A stretch of DNA of 64,000 nucleotides from Allodiplogaster sudhausi (Eukaryota > Nematoda > Chromadorea > Rhabditida > Diplogasteridae): assembly GCA_945643635.1 (NCBI GenBank), contig CALZFC010000298.1, positions 552,001 through 616,000 on the forward strand, read 5' to 3'. The notes beneath the pieces are model-generated. The model was not told the origin of the DNA. It searched no databases and was given only the letters and a program-made list of their open reading frames with translations. Both the position numbers and the translations under genes were made by a program. Below, one piece after another: positions 9,687-62,137 of this stretch (the first letter of the stretch is position 1; each line of letters begins with the position of its first letter).

Positions 9687-12440
9687 GGGAGAGATGAGCG
9701 AGCGCATATAAAGAGGGAGAAAGGGGGGTAGGGGGAGAGAGCGAAAAGAACGTACATATGTACAGTCGCGCCCAGGATCTTGGTACCAAGGACGCTTCGG
9801 ACGATTCGGACGCTTCCAAATGCATCCTCGCTAATAACCTTTGTTCTGGGAAATACTAAAATATTTTTAATGGTACATTAGTTTGCTTATAGAGTGCGGA
9901 TGCTACTGTTAAAAAATCGATAACTTTTTATCATTTGATAAAAAGTTATCAGTTTTTGCTAATAAAAAATTTCATTTCCAATGTTTTTCAACGAAATTTC
10001 TCCTGTATCATTATTTTGTCTCTACCCACATCCCCAAATAATAGAATGAGAGATTTTATCATTGATAACGGAAATCGATAAATCAGAACTTATCATTCAT
10101 ATTCATATGATGAAAAGATTCGCCTTACGATTCTGAATCTAATTATGTAATCAATTTTCAACAGAAACTGCCGGTTCACAACATATTTTCGATTGCGTGT
10201 ACTTTGCATTACTTTCTTCAGAAAGAACAGGGCAGGGAGGACAGAAAGAACTTCAGAAAGAACAGGGTAGGCCGAGGGGGCGTGGCCTAACCCTTTTTTT
10301 CTCTGCCTGTGCTATTTCACTACCTCAAACTTGGGTAATTAAACCGAAGACGAAAAGGGAGCGCGCTATATTTCTAGGTATCAATGCTAGCGCAGCAACC
10401 TAGATTTGAAGCATCATACCATCCAAAAGTTTTGACAAAGACTGAAACGATGGGGAATCCTGATGAAACTAATGCAAAGTACACACAATCATAAATATGT
10501 TGTTAACCGGCATTTTCTTCTGAAAACTGATTACATAATTAGATTCAGAATTGTAAGGCGAATCTTTATATCATATGAACATGTATGATAAGGTCTGATT
10601 TATCAACTTCCGTTATCAATGATAAAATCTCTAATTTCATTATTTGGTTATGTGGGTAGAGACAAAATAATGGTGCAGGAGAAATTTCGTTGAAAAACAT
10701 TAGAAATGAAATTTTTTATAAGCAAAAACTGATAACTTCTTATCAAATGATAAAAAGTTATCGATTTTTTTTACAGTAGCATCCGTACTCTATAAGAGAA
10801 CTAATGTACCATTTAAAATATTTTAGTATTTCTTAGAACAAAGGTTATTAGCGAGGATGCATTTGGAAGCGTCCGAACCGTCCGAAGCGTCCTTGGTACC
10901 AAGATCCTGGGCGCGACTGTAGTTTACATATGTTTTAAAAGAATGAAATTAACACAGCTATGTACATACATGCTTAAGCAGTTCGCCTATAACCTGCCGT
11001 GTTGCAGAGTCGGCGGCGATGAACTCGGTCTTCTTAAAATCCGGCGAGTCTTAAGATATAAGGAAAAAAAATCTAGCATCCATATTATTTTCGTAACGAG
11101 TAGGCGAGCAAGAATATACATACATATGTATATTTTAGATGTACAAATGAAATTCAAGTAAATAAAATATTTAGTATACCTTCCCGGGCATGAATGGCGA
11201 ACTTTCCATCGGAGGCCGCGTTGATGAACTGGATGTGCGAAAGCGAGATCGGTAGGGAGACGTTCCGAGAAGTCTAGAAAGATCTTCTCTTGCAAGGCAC
11301 GGACTAAGACTTCCAGCAGACCTCAAGGCTCTTGCGGAAGTAGATGTGCTCGTCACGCAGCACGAGCAGACAGCGCAGGCCGCCGAAGATGAGAGGCCGC
11401 CGCGCCGATCGCAGCACCACGCCGCCCACGTAGGAAATGCGCGTGCCGCTCGGGGGCCGACCACTGAAATGATCGCGTCGGAAAGGTAATCCTCCCTATC
11501 TATCTTGCACTTTTTGATTTATGTATATTTAATCAGACACGTATGTATGTACATATGTACATACATATATACATATGTATGTATGTATGTACATATCTGA
11601 TTTATCATATAATTTTCTACCTGGATCTAATCCATTATGTTGATGCTGCGAGTCATGAATATCTAGAGGATAGCGCGCCTTCCACTCGGCCTCTTCCTTG
11701 ATTGGCTCACTGGTTTCCGCGACCACCACGGAATCTCCCGCTTCAGACGCGGCTGCCGCATCCTGCAGCGTGATGAAGGCCGGCTCGCTGAAGGAACGGC
11801 GATGACAAGTAGCACTTTCTAGCGATTCCGCCGTGTGGCGCGTGCAGTCGGAAGTGCTTCTTGAGCGCCCTTGCTCTTCGTTGTCAGTCGAGAGGAGGGA
11901 AGCTGATGGCCACTCTTCTGAGCATTCAACTGACGACAACGGCAGGCGAAAGGCCATCCGGGGTCGAGGTGGCCGAATGGGCTTTTCTTCTTCATCGCGA
12001 GGACACTTCAATGGCGCGTCCACCACTTCCATCACTTGTCGATGATGTCCAAAGCGAGCGAGTGGCTGAGCACTGGCCACGGGGCGGAAGCGCACCGGAG
12101 GAGGGGGCTGGGGCGGGGCAGAAGCTGAGGGGGAAACTGTAGAGGAGGCTGAGGAGGAAGCTGAGGGGGAGGCTGAGGGGGAGGCTGATCGGCGTCTCGA
12201 TGACATCACTCCTGGCAGGTGTCGTTGGCTAGGAGAGAGCTGTGGCTGACCATGAACAGAGGAAGGCAGAGAAGCCGAGCCAGGCCGGCTCTCTCCCATG
12301 GATTGGGCAGAAGAAGCCCAGGGGAAGGCATCACTCGAAGAATCCTCGTTAGCAACGTACAGGGAATCTGCGATATGCGCGACTGACGAAGAAAGATTAG
12401 GCGAGAGCGCCGCCGAAGGAGGCGCCGCTCGGCAGTCCAT
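7618..12440 (-). CDS. PH and RhoGAP domain protein, Rho GTPase activator
   Basis: Predicted to speed GTP hydrolysis by Rho-family GTPases at membranes. Thirteen exons: 11621-12440 (ATG at 12440; Ser/Pro-rich, low complexity), 11322-11463, 11180-11273, 10994-11032 and 9384-9574 (PH domain: GRPPSGTRISYVGGVVL, HIYFRKSLE, AADSATRQMW), 9123-9192, 8938-9026, 8726-8863, 8528-8634, 8378-8453, 8104-8171, 7852-8018, 7618-7779. The RhoGAP domain keeps the arginine finger in GIHRTPG, SLREFLRRMQSPLFPD, and NLARIFAPSLF with the conserved Asn. Exon phases close from PH to stop, but exon 1 to exon 2 does not close in frame, so a small exon may be missing. The first ATG follows CTAG, so upstream exons are possible. 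The intron after 8938 has a GC donor. The SL1-bearing foldback lies in the intron 9575-10993. The protein ends about 40 residues after the GAP domain. Exact ARHGAP subfamily is not clear. Confidence 0.87.
9585..9722. repeat. GA microsatellite in a RhoGAP intron
   Basis: (GA)n with interruptions. On the coding (minus) strand it is CT-rich and runs into CTCTCCAG, the 3' splice site of the exon that starts at 9574, so it forms that site's polypyrimidine tract. Confidence 0.9.
9763..10919. mobile_element. Foldback / Tc1-mariner-like MITE with 450-bp inverted repeats, TA target duplication
   Basis: The left arm 9763-10211 is the near-perfect reverse complement of 10470-10919. Both outer ends read CAGTCGCGCCCAGGATCTTG and are flanked by TA (9761-9762 and 10920-10921), the target duplication of Tc1/mariner transposases. 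The site lies in an ACATATGTA-type sequence. There is no transposase reading frame, so movement would need an enzyme from elsewhere. The 258-bp single-copy centre (10212-10469) carries the spliced-leader sequence, a direct repeat of CTTCAGAAAGAACAGGG (10217 and 10252) and a GGCC hairpin. The arms differ at scattered sites, so the copy is not brand new. Confidence 0.93.
10324..10345 (-). ncRNA. Nematode SL1 spliced-leader sequence inside the foldback element
   Basis: Read on the minus strand from 10345, all 22 bases equal the canonical SL1 leader (starts GGTTTAATTACCC, ends AAGTTTGAG). It is followed directly by GTAGTG, a GT donor as in SL RNA genes. Some 50 nt further on, GGTTAGGCC and GGCCTACC can form an 8-bp stem. 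The usual U-rich Sm site was not found (an A-run sits there), so this may be a decayed or captured SL RNA gene and not a working one. It points in the same direction as the host RhoGAP gene. Confidence 0.85.
11535..11597. repeat. ATGT/ACAT simple repeat with palindromic core
   Basis: Alternating GTATGTATGT and ACATACATA blocks form overlapping palindromes just downstream of RhoGAP exon 1. Shorter ACATATGT clusters occur at 7185-7205, 9753-9762 and 11118-11136. Confidence 0.8.
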
Positions 12441-23591: not shown

Positions 23592-46463
<22,872 letters not shown>

Positions 46464-50913: not shown

Positions 50914-53900
50914 ATGGCTTTGCCTCGCTTCGCGGCCGACGAAGAGGTTACTGGTTCTTTTCATTTCGGAACAGTTCTTATACAATAAAATTTGAACTGT
51001 TTGAGAGATTCGAGCCGTTGAGTACTTACTTGACAAATTGAAGGTTGGCATCGAGCGTATCGACGCTGACATTCTGATGGAGAACGTGCGGCAGTCCACG
51101 GCCAAGTTCACCTTCGAGCCATACTATGCTGCGGCGCGCAAAAATCTCATGGTTAGTTTATTCATTCATTGTTTTTTTCATTTATTATATCGTTTGTTCC
51201 CATTTTCTTACTTTCAACATGAATATATTTGAAGTTTGGTTTTAAGGATAAGCGCATGACTTTCGACAACGAAACACGAATCGATGTGATGCAGGCTCTC
51301 TCCATTATGCGGAGGCGATTACCAAGTGCGTTTTTGTTCCCAAACATTATATTGCTTGGAAAGATTATTAGCCACGATATTAGATTGCTCCGCTCTTCAA
51401 TATAATATTTTACAAGGAATGCCATGATACCGTGAGATCTTGATGATAACCGTTCTTCTTGTTCTACTTATCGTTTTTATTAGACTAGTTGGTTTTGAGT
51501 TTCGAAGACAGCGTCACTCGAGCAGAAGCTGGCGAGCCTTGCCAGCAATCTCGAATGTTCACTACGCAAGGAGCACGGCGGTGTTACCATACAGAATACC
51601 GACATTCATATCGAAATTGTGTGCTCCAATGAGCAGGTAAACTTATGTTAAAAATATGATGCTTAATATTTCTATTAAAATAACTGACAGTGAGTTATAC
51701 TCCATTTTGTAGGTAATCACCGTGAATATTGGCTACTTCGGCCGTGCACTGGGACCTTCCTCGGAGCTTGCTGCTATGCTTCAGGTTCTGCTATGGTCTT
51801 TTTACTTTGTAAGATTCAATGATAGTATCTGATTTAAAAGTTCTGTTCTCAGGCGGACGACTGGTCATCGTTTCGTAAGCACGTGCAGATCATGGCGAGA
51901 GTTGTCCCTGCCTCGGCCAATCGGTTCCTTTCTTTACATTCTATTTACTTCCTTCTATTAATTTGATTGCTTTTGAGTTAAGGAAAATATTTTGTGTGAA
52001 TTATCCTTTAATTGGTTACATTTTTACATAATTTTTTTTAGCGAATTGAAAGAGCGATTGGTCGCGGCACTCGAGGGGATAGAGAGAATGAGCGGAGGAT
52101 CAGCTGGCACTATGGCAAAGTTGACCGATGTTAGAATTCCTCCTCATTACTTAATTATAATTTTTTTTTTATAAACTAAAGACTCAGAAAAAATACAAGT
52201 TAGCATGAGATGTCTAACTGAAATCGTCAATAGTTAAAATATCCGGTTATTCACAGCGCTATTCCATGCATCTTGAAATATTGAGATAAACACGTCCGAG
52301 CTGGGCTTCGTCTTGCCACGAAATGCAGTTCGGCCTGCTCGTCTCTATTTTTCTGTCGAGCCAAGCTACATCTTTCAAGTGCAACCGAGGCCAGCCCTCA
52401 ATCCAGAATTGGGTTTGCAAAGTTGATCCTCCTTTTATGCACCACTTCAACATGTATTCATGACAAAGTAATCTCGAACAGTTATAATTATTTTCGATAG
52501 AGAAGCATCACTAGAAATGGTGAATACCTTGCCAAAACACAGCGTTCACTGCACTCACGTCTCCTATGTGCTGAAATTGCAGATATCGAAGTTCCTTATG
52601 CCGAATTAACGCTTGAGGAAGCGGCGAAAGAGACAGAACTTCACTTACCGAACGGAGAGTACGCGTTTCAATTGATGTTGTTCTACACTAAATTAGATGG
52701 CACAATCTAGAGAGTACTGTTATTGGATTGTCTTATGGAATGATCGTCATGTGCAGTGCCTTCTCCTTGCCGTGTGCCCTTCTCCTCCGCTTCTCGACCC
52801 CCTGGCTTCTCTCTGCTGCTACCTTGGATTCTCTTCGAAGAGTCGACGCGAGGCCCCTTGTCATTCGGCAACGAGTCAATCTCTTCCGCTACTTGGCCGG
52901 ATTTACGCAAAAGGTTAGAAAACGGCCAAAAGTCTGCAAAGGTGCGAACATTCTTCATACCGTCTACTTTTCTGAATTATTACCATTAGCAGTGTTACTG
53001 CAGTTGTGATAAATGATTTTGGAAAGAAAGATTATTTATTATACTATTATGCGTGATTATTAATAATAAAATGAAATAATATGAGGACTCAATCGTCGAG
53101 TTGTCGGGGGTGTTGGGCGGCCGAGAAGAAGTATTCGAGATAGAGCAGAGGCAACTCGGAGGAGAGCAAGACGCCATTGTGAATGAACTCGTAGTGGAAG
53201 ACACCAAGCACATGGCCAAGGTTCGCTTCCTGTAGTCACTTGTGTTTCTTAAGCTTTCTCCTATTTCCATTCGTCTTCCCCTTTTTTTATCTCTCTGTTA
53301 AGGTGATCTCTCTGCTCCGCTCCCAATGTGTCTTTAACTCTGCCTGGGAATCTCTGGTGGCTCTCAAGCCGTCGTCTGCTGAATCCGACAAGAGAAGGAG
53401 TGCTCCGCCCTCCGTAACATTCAAGCTGTCTCCGACTCCTCCCCGTTGCTACTCAGCTGTGTTCAGGACAGAGGAACACGGCATTCTCGTTGGTATGTCT
53501 GCAAGTTATGACTTCAAATATGCTCGTTCGAAAGATTTCAAATATACCTTGAAATGGTTCATGAACGGAGTTTTTTTTAATCTTCCGAAGAAATTTTCCC
53601 CCGAAATTTTAGGAGTAATGTTATAATAGCTACTATTCCTTATATGCATTCGATCACTTCTGTTCAGCGCGAATAGAGAATGAAGAAGACACGTGGATCG
53701 CACGTATCCTGACGCTGGAGGAGGAGTCGCTGTCACCAGAGACTGATGCCGTTGCCACCAAGGCTTTCGATAGGTTTACATCTCTCTCTCTCTCCCTCTT
53801 TCTCTCTCTCTCGTCCTTTCTTTGCTTTCCCCCTTTTCTGTCTGTTCACCTTCGTTAACTTCTAATCTACTTTCATCCTTAGATCTGAAACTTTGTTTAG

Positions 53901-55485
53901 TTTCTTCGACGTTGTGTCCGTTCTTCATTATAAAAACCTTTTTTGCATTATGCAAGTGATTAGTTTGAAGTTTTTTTCTTGAATGAAGAGTTTGCTTGCA
54001 GATCGTGGTCACTGGCCATTGCTCTCGGGAAAACTCTGGATTATCTCGGAATCGCAGGAGAGCCGAGAGAGAGAAAGCAATCGGCCGCTGTGAAGGATGA
54101 GGCCATGGATGTGGAAATCGCGGCCAAGGAGCTCAAAGCAACCCGGATATCGAGTGCTTGGTAATTAACTCCCACGCAGTATCGTAATCTAATCTACAAT
54201 ACACTTCAATTTTTGACTACTTGAGAGTGGGAAACGTCTATTTGAAACGTTGTGATCTCGTGTTACTCTGGACCCTTTTAGAGTTATTTCGTTTGTACTT
54301 GCCCGGAATAAACCGTTCTCGCTAATAAGCTCGACTGTTTTTCGCACCATACAAAAAGGCTGAGAATACCTTTGATTTGACTGGAAGCGAGGGACTGAGA
54401 GTTTTTCAGCGAGAACGGTCATTTCCGATAAGTAGTGCATTCAGCCAAATCTTTTGTAGTATTCTCCGATTTGAGATTAAGCGGAGAAAGGCGAAAGTTC
54501 CTGACCGCTATTAGTTGATCACGCATACCGATAACTAGAATAGTTTACTTAATTTGGTTCTACATTGCCTACATTATTTCCCTGTAAACTCCAATTTGGT
54601 CACAACGACTAGAAGGCAAAGTCATGTATGTTTATGGATATTTACACGATTACCGTATAACACTGATCTTATCGAAGAATTAGGATTTTTTTTCAATTTT
54701 GAAGGCGCATTAATCGACCGCGGCGACCACGCACTCCCGAGCACGTGCTGGAAGTTGATGAGAACATTGCAGCGCCTTGTGGACTGCTTGATCTCATGCT
54801 AGAGGCTAGCTCTCTCTCTCTCACTCTCTCTCTCTCTCTCTCTCTCTGTCTTTCTTGCTCTCTCTCTCTCACTCTCTCTGTCTTTCTAGCTCTCTCACTC
54901 TCTATCTATCTGTCTGTCTCTCCCTCTCTGTCTTTCTAGCTCTCTCTCTCTCTCACTCTCTCTCTCTCTCTGTCTTTCTAGCTCTCTCTCTCTCACTCTC
55001 TCTGTCTTTCTAGCTCTCTCACTCTCTATCTATCTGTCTGTCTCTCCCTCTCTGTCTTTCTAGCTCTCTCTCTCACACTCTCTCTCTCTCTCTCTGTCTT
55101 TCTAACTCTCTCTCTCACTCTCTCTGTCTTTCTAGCTCTTTCACTCTCTATCTATCTGTCTGTCTCTCCCTCTGTCTTTCTAGCTCTCTCTCTCTCACTC
55201 TCTCTCTCTCTGTCTTTCTAGCTCTCTCTCTCTCTCTCTCACTCTCTCTCTGTCTTTCTAGCTCTCTCACTCTCTATCTATCTGTCTGTCTCTCCCTCTC
55301 TGTCTTTCTAGCTCTCTCTCTCTCACTCTCTCTCTCTGTCTTTCTAGCTCTCTCTCTCTCTCACTCTCTCTCTCTCTCTCTCTCACTCTCTCTGTCTTTC
55401 TAGCTCTCTCACTCTCTCACTCTCTCTGTCTTTCTAGCTCTCTCACTCTCTATCTATCTGTCTGTCTCTCCCTCTCTGTCTTTCT

Positions 55486-55529
<44 letters not shown>

Positions 55530-56035
55530 TTCTAGCTCTCTCTCACTCTCTCTGTCTTTCTAGCTCTCTCACTCTCTATCTATCTGTCTGTCTCTCCCTC
55601 TCTGTCTTTCTAGCTCTCTCTCTCTCTCTCACTGTCTCTCTCTCTGTCTTTCTAGCTCTCTCTCTCTCACTCTCTCTGTCTTTCTAGCTCTCTCACTCTC
55701 TATCTATCTGTCTGTCTCTCCCTCTGTCTTTCTAGCTCTCTCTCTCTCACTCTCTCTCTCTCTGTCTTTCTAGCTCTCTCTCTCTCTCTCTCACTCTCTC
55801 TCTGTCTTTCTAGCTCTCTCACTCTCTATCTATCTGTCTGTCTCTCCCTCTCTGTCTTTCTAGCTCTCTCTCTCTCACTCTCTCTCTCTGTCTTTCTAGC
55901 TCTCTCTCTCTCTCACTCTCTCTCTCTCTCTCTCACTCTCTCTGTCTTTCTAGCTCTCTCACTCTCTCACTCTCTCTGTCTTTCTAGCTCTCTCACTCTC
56001 TATCTATCTGTCTGTCTCTCCCTCTCTGTCTTTCT

Positions 56036-56077
<42 letters not shown>

Positions 56078-56749
56078 TTCTAGCTCTCTCTCACTCTCTC
56101 TGTCTTTCTAGCTCTCTCACTCTCTATCTATCTGTCTGTCTCTCCCTCTCTGTCTTTCTAGCTCTCTCTCTCTCTCTCACTGTCTCTCTCTCTGTCTTTC
56201 TAGCTCTCTCTCTCTCTCACTCTCTCTCTCTCTCTGTCTTTCTAGCTCTCTCTCTCACTCTCTCTGTCTTTCTAGCTCTCTCACTCTCTATCTATCTGTC
56301 TGTCTCTCCCTCTCTGTCTTTCTAGCTCTCTCTCTCTCACTCTCTCTCTCCCTCTGTCTTTCTAGCTCTCTCTCTCTCTCACTCTCTCTGTCTTTCTAGC
56401 TCTCTCACTCTCTATCTATCTGTCTGTCTCTCCCTCTCTGTCTTTCTAGCTCTCTCTCTCTCTCACTCTCTCTCTCTCTCTGTCTTTCTAGCTCTCTCTC
56501 TCTCACTCTCTCTCTCTCTGTCTTTCTAGCTCTCTCTCTCACTCTCTCTGTCTTTCTAGCTCTCTCACTCTCTATCTATCTGTCTGTCTCTCCCTCCCTC
56601 TCTGTCTTTCTAGCTCTCTCTCTCTCTCTCACTCTCTCTCTCTCTCTCTGTCTTTCTAGCTCTCTCTCTCTCTCTCTCTCTCACTCTCTCTGTCTTTCTA
56701 GCTCTCTCACTCTCTATCTATCTGTCTGTCTCTCCCTCTCTGTCTTTCT

Positions 56750-56793
<44 letters not shown>

Positions 56794-57046
56794 TTCTAGC
56801 TCTCTCTCTCACTCTCTCTATCTTTCTAGCTCTCTCACTCTCTATCTATCTGTCTGTCTCTCCCTCTCTGTCTTTCTAGCTCTCTCTCTCACTCTCTCTC
56901 TCTCTCTGTCTTTCTAGCTATCTCTCTCTCTCACTCTCTCTGTCTTTCTAGCTCTCTCACTCTCTCACTCTCTCTGTCTTTCTAGCTCTCTCACTCTCTA
57001 TCTATCTGTCTGTCTCTCCCTCTCTGTCTTTCTAGCTCTCTCTCTC

Positions 57047-57091
<45 letters not shown>

Positions 57092-57739
57092 TTCTAGCTC
57101 TCTCTCACTCTCTCTGTCTTTCTAGCTCTCTCACTCTCTATCTATCTGTCTGTCTCTCCCTCTCTGTCTTTCTAGCTCTCTCTCTCTCTCACTGTCTCTC
57201 TCTCTGTCTTTCTAGCTCTCTCTCTCTCTCACTCTCTCTCTCTCTGTCTTTCTAGCTCTCTCTCTCACTCTCTCTGTCTTTCTAGCTCTCTCACTCTCTA
57301 TCTATCTGTCTGTCTCTCCCTCTCTGTCTTTCTAGCTCTCTCTCTCTCACTCTCTCTCTCCCTCTGTCTTTCTAGCTCTCTCTCTCTCTCTCACTCTCTC
57401 TGTCTTTCTAGCTCTCTCACTCTCTATCTATCTGTCTGTCTCTCCCTCTCTGTCTTTCTAGCTCTCTCTCTCTCACTCTCTCTCTCTCTCTGTCTTTCTA
57501 GCTCTCTCTCTCTCTCTCTCTGTCTTTCTAGCTCTCTCTCTCTCACTCTCTCTGTCTTTCTAGCTCTCTCACTCTCTATCTATCTGTCTGTCTCTCCCTC
57601 TCTGTCTTTCTAGCTCTCTCTCTCTCTCACTCTCTCTCTCTCTCTGTCTTTCTAGCTCTCTCTCTCTCTCTCACTCTCTCTGTCTTTCTAGCTCTCTCAA
57701 TCTCTATCTATCTGTCTGTCTCTCCCTCTCTGTCTTTCT

Positions 57740-57781
<42 letters not shown>

Positions 57782-58335
57782 TTCTAGCTCTCTCTCTCAC
57801 TCTCTCTATCTTTCTAGCTCTCTCACTCTCTATCTATCTGTCTGTCTCTCCCTCTCTGTCTTTCTAGCTCTCTCTCTCACTCTCTCTCTCTCTCTCTGTC
57901 TTTCTAGCTCTCTCTCTCTCTCACTCTCTCTGTCTTTCTAGCTCTCTCACTCTCTCACTCTCTCTGTCTTTCTAGCTCTCTCACTCTCTATCTATCTGTC
58001 TGTCTCTCCCTCTCTGTCTTTCTAGCTCTCTCTCTCTCACTCTCTCTCTCTCTGTCTTTCTAGCTCTCTCTCTCTCTCTCTCACTCTCTCTCTGTCTTTC
58101 TAGCTCTCTCACTCTCTATCTATCTGTCTGTCTCTCCCTCTCTGTCTTTCTAGCTCTCTCTCTCTCACTCTCTCTCTCTCTGTCTTTCTAGCTCTCTCTC
58201 TCTCTCTCACTCTCTCTCTCTCTCTCTCACTCTCTCTGTCTTTCTAGCTCTCTCTCTCTCTCTCTCTCACTCTCTCTGTCTTTCTAGCTCTCTCACTCTC
58301 TATCTATCTGTCTGTCTCTCCCTCTCTGTCTTTCT

Positions 58336-58385
<50 letters not shown>

Positions 58386-58638
58386 TTCTAGCTCTCTCTC
58401 TCACTCTCTCTATCTTTCTAGCTCTCTCACTCTCTATCTATCTGTCTGTCTCTCCCTCTCTGTCTTTCTAGCTCTCTCTCTCACTCTCTCTCTCTCTCTG
58501 TCTTTCTAGCTATCTCTCTCTCTCACTCTCTCTGTCTTTCTAGCTCTCTCACTCTCTCACTCTCTCTGTCTTTCTAGCTCTCTCACTCTCTATCTATCTG
58601 TCTGTCTCTCCCTCTCTGTCTTTCTAGCTCTCTCTCTC

Positions 58639-58675
<37 letters not shown>

Positions 58676-59321
58676 TTCTAGCTCTCTCTCACTCTCTCTG
58701 TCTTTCTAGCTCTCTCACTCTCTATCTATCTGTCTGTCTCTCCCTCTCTGTCTTTCTAGCTCTCTCTCTCTCTCACTGTCTCTCTCTCTGTCTTTCTAGC
58801 TCTCTCTCTCTCTCACTCTCTCTCTCTCTGTCTTTCTAGCTCTCTCTCTCACTCTCTCTGTCTTTCTAGCTCTCTCACTCTCTATCTATCTGTCTGTCTC
58901 TCCCTCTCTGTCTTTCTAGCTCTCTCTCTCTCACTCTCTCTCTCCCTCTGTCTTTCTAGCTCTCTCTCTCTCTCACTCTCTCTGTCTTTCTAGCTCTCTC
59001 ACTCTCTATCTATCTGTCTGTCTCTCCCTCTCTGTCTTTCTAGCTCTCTCTCTCTCACTCTCTCTCTCTCTCTGTCTTTCTAGCTCTCTCTCTCTCTCTC
59101 TCTGTCTTTCTAGCTCTCTCTCTCTCACTCTCTCTGTCTTTCTAGCTCTCTCACTCTCTATCTATCTGTCTGTCTCTCCCTCTCTGTCTTTCTAGCTCTC
59201 TCTCTCTCTCACTCTCTCTCTCTCTCTGTCTTTCTAGCTCTCTCTCTCTCTCTCACTCTCTCTGTCTTTCTAGCTCTCTCAATCTCTATCTATCTGTCTG
59301 TCTCTCCCTCTCTGTCTTTCT

Positions 59322-59369
<48 letters not shown>

Positions 59370-59622
59370 TTCTAGCTCTCTCTCTCACTCTCTCTATCTT
59401 TCTAGCTCTCTCACTCTCTATCTATCTGTCTGTCTCTCCCTCTCTGTCTTTCTAGCTCTCTCTCTCACTCTCTCTCTCTCTCTGTCTTTCTAGCTCTCTC
59501 TCTCTCTCACTCTCTCTGTCTTTCTAGCTCTCTCATTCTCTCACTCTCTCTGTCTTTCTAGCTCTCTCACTCTCTATCTATCTGTCTGTCTCTCCCTCTC
59601 TGTCTTTCTAGCTCTCTCTCTC

Positions 59623-59665
<43 letters not shown>

Positions 59666-62137
59666 TTCTAGCTCTCTCTCACTCTCTCTGTCTTTCTAGC
59701 TCTCTCACTCTCTATCTATCTGTCTGTCTCTCCCTCTCTGTCTTTCTAGCTCTCTCTCTCTCTCACTGTCTCTCTCTCTGTCTTTCTAGCTCTCTCTCTC
59801 TCTCACTCTCTCTCTCTGTCTTTCTAGCTCTCTCTCTCACTCTCTCTGTCTTTCTAGCTCTCTCACTCTCTATCTATCTGTCTGTCTCTCCCTCTCTGTC
59901 TTTCTAGCTCTCTCTCTCTCACTCTCTCTCTCCCTCTGTCTTTCTAGCTCTCTCTCTCTCTCACTCTCTCTGTCTTTCTAGCTCTCTCACTCTCTATCTA
60001 TCTGTCTGTCTCTCCCTCTCTGTCTTTCTAGCTCTCTCTCTCTCACTCTCTCTCTCTCTCTGTCTTTCTAGCTCTCTCTCTCTCTCTCTCTGTCTTTCTA
60101 GCTCTCTCTCTCTCACTCTCTCTGTCTTTCTAGCTCTCTCACTCTCTATCTATCTGTCTGTCTCTCCCTCTCTGTCTTTCTAGCTCTCTCTCTCTCACTC
60201 TCTCTCTCTCACTCTCTCTGCCTTTCTAGCTCTCTCACTTTCTATCTGTCTGTCTCTCCCTCTCTGTCTTTCTAGCTCTCTCTCTCACTCTCTCTCTCTC
60301 TCTCTGTCTCTATCCCTTCACAACCTCCCCTCTTCGTGCTCTTTCAGTCTTTATGTGCAGTGTTCACGTTTTCCCTTGGTTGTGTTAAAATGTATGTCTC
60401 CTTATTCTGAATTGTTTGGCAGCTAGAGCAGACGGAGGAACTTGTGCAGCCAGTGATGGTGACTCGTCCCCGAGGCCTAGGCGCTAGTCTGGCGCCAGGC
60501 ACTGGATTCCCCGGCGGCCTCCCTGGTGTCCATCTCATGGGCGCCGGCGCCCATCCATACGCTGCTGCCAGAGCAACGAGACTCGCGAGTGAGAACACGC
60601 TCAATCAGAATGCATACTCGGATCTGGTTAGAAGAGCCTTTACTCTTTCTTTATATTTTTCATCAAAATGACTAGTATACCATATGAAGAATGACTCCTT
60701 GATTGCTTGACCTTGATTGCAGGAAGCGATTTGCCAGATGGCTGACAGTCTGAACAACGACTCGACGGCCCGCTCGGCCACCCCCGGCATTCCTCTTGGC
60801 CACTCTCCATATCCCGTGGGAGGGGGGCAGCACTCGCCTTCCTCCCACCAGCCTTCCTCCTCTCTTCCCAGTCCTCACATGGGTACGGCTTCTTCTTTGC
60901 TTTGCATATTTTCAAGACTTTTTCCCTACCTGTTGGGTTAAAAGACGTATATATGTTATCTTGTTCAGCTCAATTTTTTCAACCCGGATGGTATTTTGTT
61001 TATTCTAAGTTTAGCTGTAACATTTTTTTAAGTGAAAAAGATAAATTGTTTATGTACTTGTTAGGTAATGTTGATAATGAATGTAGGCTGCGGCGGGTTC
61101 GACCCTCGGACGATCTCTCCACTGGCTGGAAATACACGTGTGATCCACGGTGCCTCCCCACTCGCCTCTTCGCTTCCCGGCCACCCTCCCCATCCTGGCA
61201 TGCGACTTCCCACTGCCGCCCCGCTTACCCCCTCTCCGCACCCCCAGATGGGACAGACTCCCCAGCAGCAGCATGGGCAGTACAGTCCGCAAGAGGCAGC
61301 CAGGCACAAGTTCCTGCTGGTTAGTTGGAAAGACGAATGAGAGAGATGTCATTATACAGGCTCATTTTGTGTCTGCAGCTTGAGGTAGCAAATAACTAAG
61401 AAAATTTACTGAAATTTAACTACTGTAAAGCTTCATGGGTTCTCACGTCTCCTTAACTTCATTTTTATTGGTGTACAAGTTTGGTCACTATCTTGAGTGC
61501 ATTGTTTCTCTTCATATCCACGCATGCTCTCTCTCTCTCTCCCTCCCTCTCTCTCTCTCTCACTGCTCTCTCTCTCTATCTCTCTCTCTCTCCTCTCTCT
61601 AGCAACAACAGCAGAACGCGGCGATCTTCGACTTCCCGGACGAGACGTCGCTGGCAGGTTCTCTGGCCTCCCCTGCGGGTAGCAATGCCTCTGGCAGCAG
61701 CAGCTACTCCTCTCCCTCTGCCTACGGCGCTCCCTTTGCTTATCCCACTGGGTACTGTCCAAACTATTCTTGACATATTTTATTTCACTCTCTACCCTTC
61801 AAGTATTCATCTTATTCCTTTCTCTTTCTTGCTTAATGATTATATTTAATTTTCTTAATGTTTGTGTGAACGGTTTAAGGCGTTAAATGATAATTTAATT
61901 GAATAGGATTATTTTATGCATATTTTATTAATAAGGCCCGTGTTTAAAATGAAGTTTTGGCCACCCGGGCGGTGCAACCCCGAGTCCGCACGCGTCTCCG
62001 CTCACGCGCGGCACCGCGGCCGGAGCCGTTCCTGGCAGCGGCGCGACTCCTAGAAGAAGAGGTGCCAGAGAGGGAGCGAGAGATACAGACAAGAGAGAGA
62101 ATGAAGGCAAAATGGAGTGATAGATATAGTGTGTGTG

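Follow-up and report, generated by a model that had tools for sequence, protein, structure and literature searches.

SL1 spliced-leader sequence followed by GTA in a foldback DNA transposon family and in other repeats of the Allodiplogaster sudhausi genome

A foldback element with SL1 in its loop

The window analyzed here is a stretch of 64,000 nucleotides of the A. sudhausi genome. It contains a foldback element at 9763-10919, which is flanked by TA on both sides (9761-9762 and 10920-10921). The left inverted repeat is situated at 9763-10221 on the plus strand and has the tip CAGTCGCGCCCAGGATCTTGG, while the right inverted repeat occupies 10460-10919 on the minus strand. The arms align as an inner pair (9911-10221 with 10460-10770, 91% identity) and an outer pair (9761-9916 with 10766-10921, 95% identity). 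The first-pass annotation of this DNA had described 450-bp inverted repeats around a 258-bp centre; the repeats are real, but each arm is about 459 bp long and the loop between them is 238 bp. The loop carries an exact SL1 spliced-leader sequence on the minus strand (GGTTTAATTACCCAAGTTTGAG, 22 of 22 bases) at 10324-10345, with position 10345 as the putative +1. Directly 3' of SL1 is a GTA at 10321-10323 (minus strand), a putative 5' splice donor. The complete 22-base SL1 with a GT donor, which had been claimed for the minus strand of the centre, is thus present as described. A well-conserved stretch 3' of SL1 is found at 10294-10323, and TAGGTTG, putatively the half-site of an snRNA-type promoter motif, at 10396-10402, -57 from the putative +1, both on the minus strand.

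Apart from the SL1 at 10324-10345, the window has no match to the leader with three or fewer mismatches, and 100 dinucleotide-preserving shuffles of the window yielded no SL1 within three mismatches. In the whole genome, exact SL1 occurs at 1821 places against none for a reversed control pattern. A chance origin, already judged negligible from the length of the match, is therefore ruled out. An assembly artefact, which had been raised as a doubt, is excluded as well, since full-length copies of the element are present on many contigs. A scan of the whole window with Rfam at the gathering threshold gave no match. Elsewhere in the window, exon-like frames on the minus strand at 40564-44477 resemble by eye a Snf2/INO80-type helicase gene (putative). 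The region 52001-60000 shows strong strand asymmetry, and a pyrimidine-rich tract at 56-60 kb has a GC skew of -0.735 and an AT skew of -0.76.

Retention of SL1 and GTA in family A

The genome (351.8 Mb in 382 contigs) was searched for copies of the element, here called family A. The search gave 988 candidates, ranked by similarity to the window copy. As only the best 40 of these 988 were scored, the family A counts below are lower bounds and the sample is tilted to close relatives. From the 40 loci fetched, 39 long copies belonging to 37 loci were aligned. Two of them are tandem duplicates at L022 (G000:C16:3193890-3197732), where the element occurs in three tandem repeats with a period of 1156 bp. 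SL1 is exact in 33 of the 39 aligned long copies and has one mismatch in the other 6, while GTA follows it directly in 37 of 39; excluding the two tandem duplicates, the figures are 31/37 for exact SL1 and 35/37 for GTA. With a mean divergence of 4.55% in the family, about 14 of 39 exact SL1 sequences would be expected, against the 33 observed. All 39 long copies hold SL1 in their centres with at most one mismatch, so the suggestion that other copies might lack it does not hold. The remaining three loci have partial copies: in L038 SL1 is interrupted by another repeat, L039 shows no SL1 within 5 substitutions, and the SL1 of L040 deviates at one base and continues with TTA instead of GTA.

The family A tip sequence is CAGTCSCGCCCAGGATCTTGG, and the leader continues as SL1-GTAGCGAAAT. 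Two subfamilies were distinguished by their tips, CAGTCGCG and CAGTCCCG, and SL1 is present in both. Copies aligned end to end are homogeneous in length (1115-1162 bp), and 27 of these 29 have TA on both sides, in agreement with the earlier description of a TA-flanked, Tc1/mariner-like element. The window element belongs to a family of non-autonomous DNA transposons that have long inverted repeats and duplicate TA at the target, and the SL1 exon with its GT donor in the loop is a retained, inherited part of family A.

To describe conservation along the element, changes were counted on a tree of 37 family A copies. The 22 columns of SL1 show 6 changes, whereas the remainder of the loop has 0.87 per column (one-sided p 0.0008). 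In a ranking of all sliding windows of 22 bases SL1 takes place 24 of 1112, which means that some other stretches are equally conserved. The 30 nucleotides 3' of SL1 show 10 inferred changes in 30 columns, again compared with 0.87 per column in the loop outside SL1, and the region from -1 to -39 upstream is poorly conserved (53 changes in 39 columns). Raw counts had suggested a conserved promoter island at -40 to -60, but the changes counted on the tree rule this out, with -40 to -59 being average (rank 615 of 1114).

SL1 in tandem arrays and in other repeat groups

The 1821 exact SL1 places comprise 788 of SL1-GTAC, 540 of SL1-GTAT and a remaining 493. Among 100 listed SL1-GTAC places, 95 were clustered on contigs C1 and C7 and 5 were elsewhere. 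The SL1-GTAC units read on C1 are tandem SL RNA genes with a spacing of mostly 460 bp and the form SL1-GTACTAATTCGATCTGG...AAATTTTGG. A search for 5S beside the SL RNA genes of one array locus (L062) gave no match up to E 0.1. Of the first 100 SL1 places listed, 62 are in the C1 array region and 38 outside it on C1, C4 and C5. All 38 were read and assigned to family A (22) and, for the other 16, to eight further groups: B (6), C (2), C2 (2), D (1), E (1), F (1), G (2) and H (1). SL1-GTA is found in 34 of these 38 places and the remaining 4 are donor-less LTR-type repeats. Another 40 places, 36 picked for GTAT and 4 for GTAC outside the arrays, represent B (25), D (8), A (1), G (2, one of which is termed G2), I (3) and J (1). 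Other, unrelated repeat families carry SL1-GTA, several of them behind an snRNA-type promoter motif.

Family B is a 602-bp DNA transposon whose ends are TGGTGCTATTAATC, and 6 of 6 copies are flanked by 3-bp target duplications. It bears a promoter-SL1-GTAT module near its right end (L044, L048, L055, L073, L079 and L088). In group E (L050), 54 nucleotides from SL1 on are common with family A and the upstream sequence is different. In group F (L051), an imperfect second SL1 situated 98 bp further on continues into a family A segment, again with upstream sequence unlike that of family A. Such A-type segments from SL1 on span the first 54-65 nucleotides in L050 and L051, and on account of this common segment E and F may be related to family A.

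Groups C and C2 have another organization. C is a 341-bp repeat at two loci, followed in one of them by a reading frame that matches reverse transcriptase (E 5.5e-08). C2 has a direct-repeat pair, 94% alike over 205 bp, surrounding its two SL1 places, and its frame gave weak matches only, all below cut-off. In these LTR-type groups (L046:1207-1547; L072) SL1 lies within the repeat, just 5' of an AATAAA- or GATAAA-like signal, and the donor is absent. C and C2 look like LTR retroelements, C2 by its structure alone. Their SL1 without donor matches the expectation for leaders acquired via trans-splicing. SL1 is present in the LTR of Ascaris Tas.

In flatworm parasites, partial leaders were recorded at 597 loci, for the most part in LTR and LINE elements, and were read as products of trans-spliced transcripts in the part of the report available (PMC12582326). 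As in the flatworms, the leaders described here lie within repeated mobile elements and in large number, and groups C and C2 match the flatworm type. The flatworm elements are chiefly LTR or LINE elements with a partial leader alone, whereas here DNA transposons have the full leader and donor, some with an snRNA-type motif (PMC12582326, same part). By this precedent, SL1 could have entered by reverse transcription of trans-spliced element RNA, a route that suits the LTR-type C and C2, in which no GT follows SL1. As a general explanation we regard it as highly improbable. GTA, which is absent from trans-spliced RNA, follows SL1 in A, B and D-J, so that a chance GTA would be needed in the ancestor of family A and likewise in the other groups. 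The donor that such a retroelement would have lost is kept in 37 of 39 copies of family A. RNA would also not carry the snRNA-type promoter motif seen upstream in several groups, and A and B have DNA-transposon ends and target duplications. Among other nematode elements, Cer1 mRNA is trans-spliced to SL1, the available part of its account mentioning no genomic leader (PMC3315495), and in Heterodera glycines some of the trans-spliced transcripts are linked to transposons, as stated in the portion available (PMC6362198).

Group D interrupts SL1 at two loci, once in a true, tandemly arrayed SL RNA gene (L061:1100-1840) and once in a family A copy (L059:1007-1900). At the junctions TACCC plus about 16 bp is repeated, as judged by eye, and D bears its own internal SL1-GTAT. 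From these features D looks like a product of target-specific retroposition in the manner of NeSL, that is, an SL1-targeting retroelement without a coding part of its own. According to the available text, NeSL elements are SL-exon-specific retrotransposons (PMC4640811). They resemble the present case as mobile elements tied to SL sequence, group D being found inserted in SL1. They differ in that they insert into SL exons, whereas family A inserts at TA and has the SL exon as internal cargo (PMC4640811, same text).

Comparison of family A with SL RNA genes

It had been proposed that the element captured an SL RNA gene. Family A has the SL1 exon and GT donor of nematode SL RNA genes, and some of the repeat groups have a pol II snRNA-type motif at the usual distance. 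Unlike those genes, family A lies within a transposon, has no Sm site and shows no likeness to array genes outside SL1-GTA. The Sm site of the array SL RNA gene is AATTTTGG. Within 150 nucleotides, no Sm site was found in family A (5 of 5 copies checked), in B (6 copies) or in D (3 copies). Group H has ATTTTGG shortly after SL1 and one G copy has GATTTG at 122. Outside SL1-GTA, the comparison of one family A centre with one array gene gave p 0.08 upstream and 0.70 downstream, which goes against the proposed similarity of the centre to the SL RNA genes of the species. Against the Rfam SL1 model, family A scores 26.9 bits (model positions 1-103, E 0.028) compared with 39.4-41 bits for five array genes, all of them below the cut-off of 75. 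Capture of a complete SL RNA gene by family A is thus unsupported. Judged by the Sm site and by similarity, family A is unlikely to be a working trans-splicing donor.

A weaker form of the capture proposal is that a true SL RNA gene entered family A through transduction at the DNA level and that its Sm site and the greater part of its sequence later disappeared, leaving SL1-GTA as a slowly decaying, hitch-hiking relic. SL1 with its donor, the weak Rfam match and a fold like SL stem I, seen in the family A consensus and in some copies, are in line with it. Group I (L135, L136, L138) shows that something resembling an SL RNA gene can still be found dispersed elsewhere. It consists of dispersed SL1 genes with an array-like promoter and hairpin pairing across the splice site, and 2 of its 3 copies have an Sm-like site and 2 of 3 have ATTTTTTGA; these are perhaps real SL RNA gene variants. 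We nevertheless hold the relic explanation to be unlikely. The array-gene similarity is confined to SL1-GTA, SL1 is kept better than the remainder of the loop, which is unexpected of a relic, and capture would have had to occur several times over, in transposons of different types.

Promoter motif upstream of SL1

Eight U2 loci of this genome were read, and in 5 of them the gene is preceded by gaaatacccggaaagtgTAGGTTG at -62 to -39. Among the exceptions, L092 is one base short and L091 and L093 differ by 1-2 letters in TAGGTTG. U2 snRNA and 5S rRNA genes adjoin in L091, L093 and L095, and the spacing between U2 copies on C158 is often about 1577 bp. In nematodes, snRNA promoters carry a SNAPc motif whose ancestral 3' half was reconstructed as GTTTC, not TAGGTTG, in the available part of that study (PMC6436959). 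TAGGTTG is here putatively assigned as an snRNA-type motif, with the U2 genes as the sole basis of the assignment.

The 24-base U2 window was compared with the sequence upstream of SL1 at equal distance within 4 bp. The p values of the promoter comparisons derive from letter-only shuffles and are uncorrected. Matches were found in F (16/24, p 0.0004), B (15, p 0.001), H (14, p 0.001), G (13, p 0.009) and D (12, p 0.035), and none in A (p 0.84), C, C2, E or the SL array. All pairs were also compared with a 28-base window in 91 tests, 10 of which were below 0.01 and 17 below 0.05; these low values include the pair G/G2, which is one group, and the kindred B, D, H and J. With this window U2 gave p 0.001 with J, 0.006 with F, 0.008 with G2, 0.012 with G, and 0.03 with H and D each, and was not significant with B. 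The promoter of the SL-array gene gave p 0.003 with group I at equal position, and G2 paired with the LTR-type C gave p 0.011. The donor-less C and C2 showed no U2 match in either window. F and U2 have the exact 14-mer gaaagtgtaggttg in common. Because the promoter module is common to B, D, H and J, these groups are not independent of each other. The base at -1 is C in every group but C2, with deviations in single copies (T in L075 and L080, A in L129).

An exact TAGGTTG is found in 36 of the 39 family A copies, 35 times at -57 and once at -56. Relative to U2 and most other groups, its distance from +1 is greater by about 10 bp, and beyond this displaced half-site family A has no match to the U2 or SL-array promoter at the right position. 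The family A TAGGTTG is perhaps a truncated version of the motif seen in B, H and J.

Possible mode of action

The arrangement of these parts suggests, tentatively and at somewhat less than even confidence, that non-autonomous transposons carry an snRNA-type promoter together with SL1 as a first exon and a donor for splicing in cis. RNA polymerase II with SNAPc would start the transcript at the first base of SL1, which would form a 22-nucleotide first exon, and GTA would be its donor used in cis. This donor could join SL1 to the next acceptor, either in transposase exons of a full-length partner or in a neighbouring gene at the landing site. The resulting mRNA would be indistinguishable from a trans-spliced one. 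In family A the weak point is the promoter, with the TAGGTTG half-site alone, shifted by about 10 bp. A role of SL1 as a first exon in cis agrees better with the parts, because the motif is present in the better groups, the transcript would start at SL1, the donor is kept and an Sm site is not needed.

An alternative is that SL1 acts as DNA, for instance as a promoter element, as a binding site for a factor or as the place where an SL1-targeting retroelement inserts, with the donor never used. The SL sequence itself is reportedly part of the Ascaris SL RNA promoter, and the position of D inside the SL1 of an SL RNA gene and of a family A copy marks SL1 as a target in this genome. GTA is unneeded for a promoter or a target, yet it is kept in family A, and the status of a target would be expected to harm the carrier. 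We judge this DNA-level role distinctly unlikely.

Tm1 is a Mutator/Foldback family of root-knot nematodes with a histone hairpin, one element being 1080 bp long, according to the available part of its description (PMC3169594). Like family A, it is a nematode foldback element with a host-type RNA-processing signal between its repeats. It differs in the length of its target duplications (8-10 bp) and in the tandem motifs of its repeats, while family A duplicates TA, and by this difference an identity of the two is ruled out (PMC3169594, same part). In that part SL1 is mentioned solely at the acceptor site of the transposase gene, whereas the cargo of family A is leader plus donor (PMC3169594). 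Among the titles and abstract openings listed in a literature search, none described a DNA transposon carrying SL1, with or without donor.

A broader form of the cis-splicing proposal is that several unrelated transposable element classes independently carry one functional module of snRNA-type promoter, SL1 start and GT donor. These would be mobile, cis-encoded spliced leaders, and part of the SL1 transcriptome would be transposon-made and independent of SL RNA. We consider this generalization doubtful.

Significance

Even without any function of these elements, the 1033 of 1821 exact SL1 sequences that fall outside the SL1-GTAC class, the class which holds the array genes, matter for leader-based annotation of SL RNA genes. 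If the cis-splicing proposal is true, the elements and nearby genes would gain SL1-headed mRNAs through cis-splicing. Counts of trans-spliced genes from RNA-seq would then be affected, because an SL1-headed read would no longer be proof of trans-splicing. The spliced leader would also be a module used and spread by transposons, beyond dedicated SL RNA genes. This would bear on the origin of new SL RNA genes and variants and on how SL trans-splicing arises or persists.
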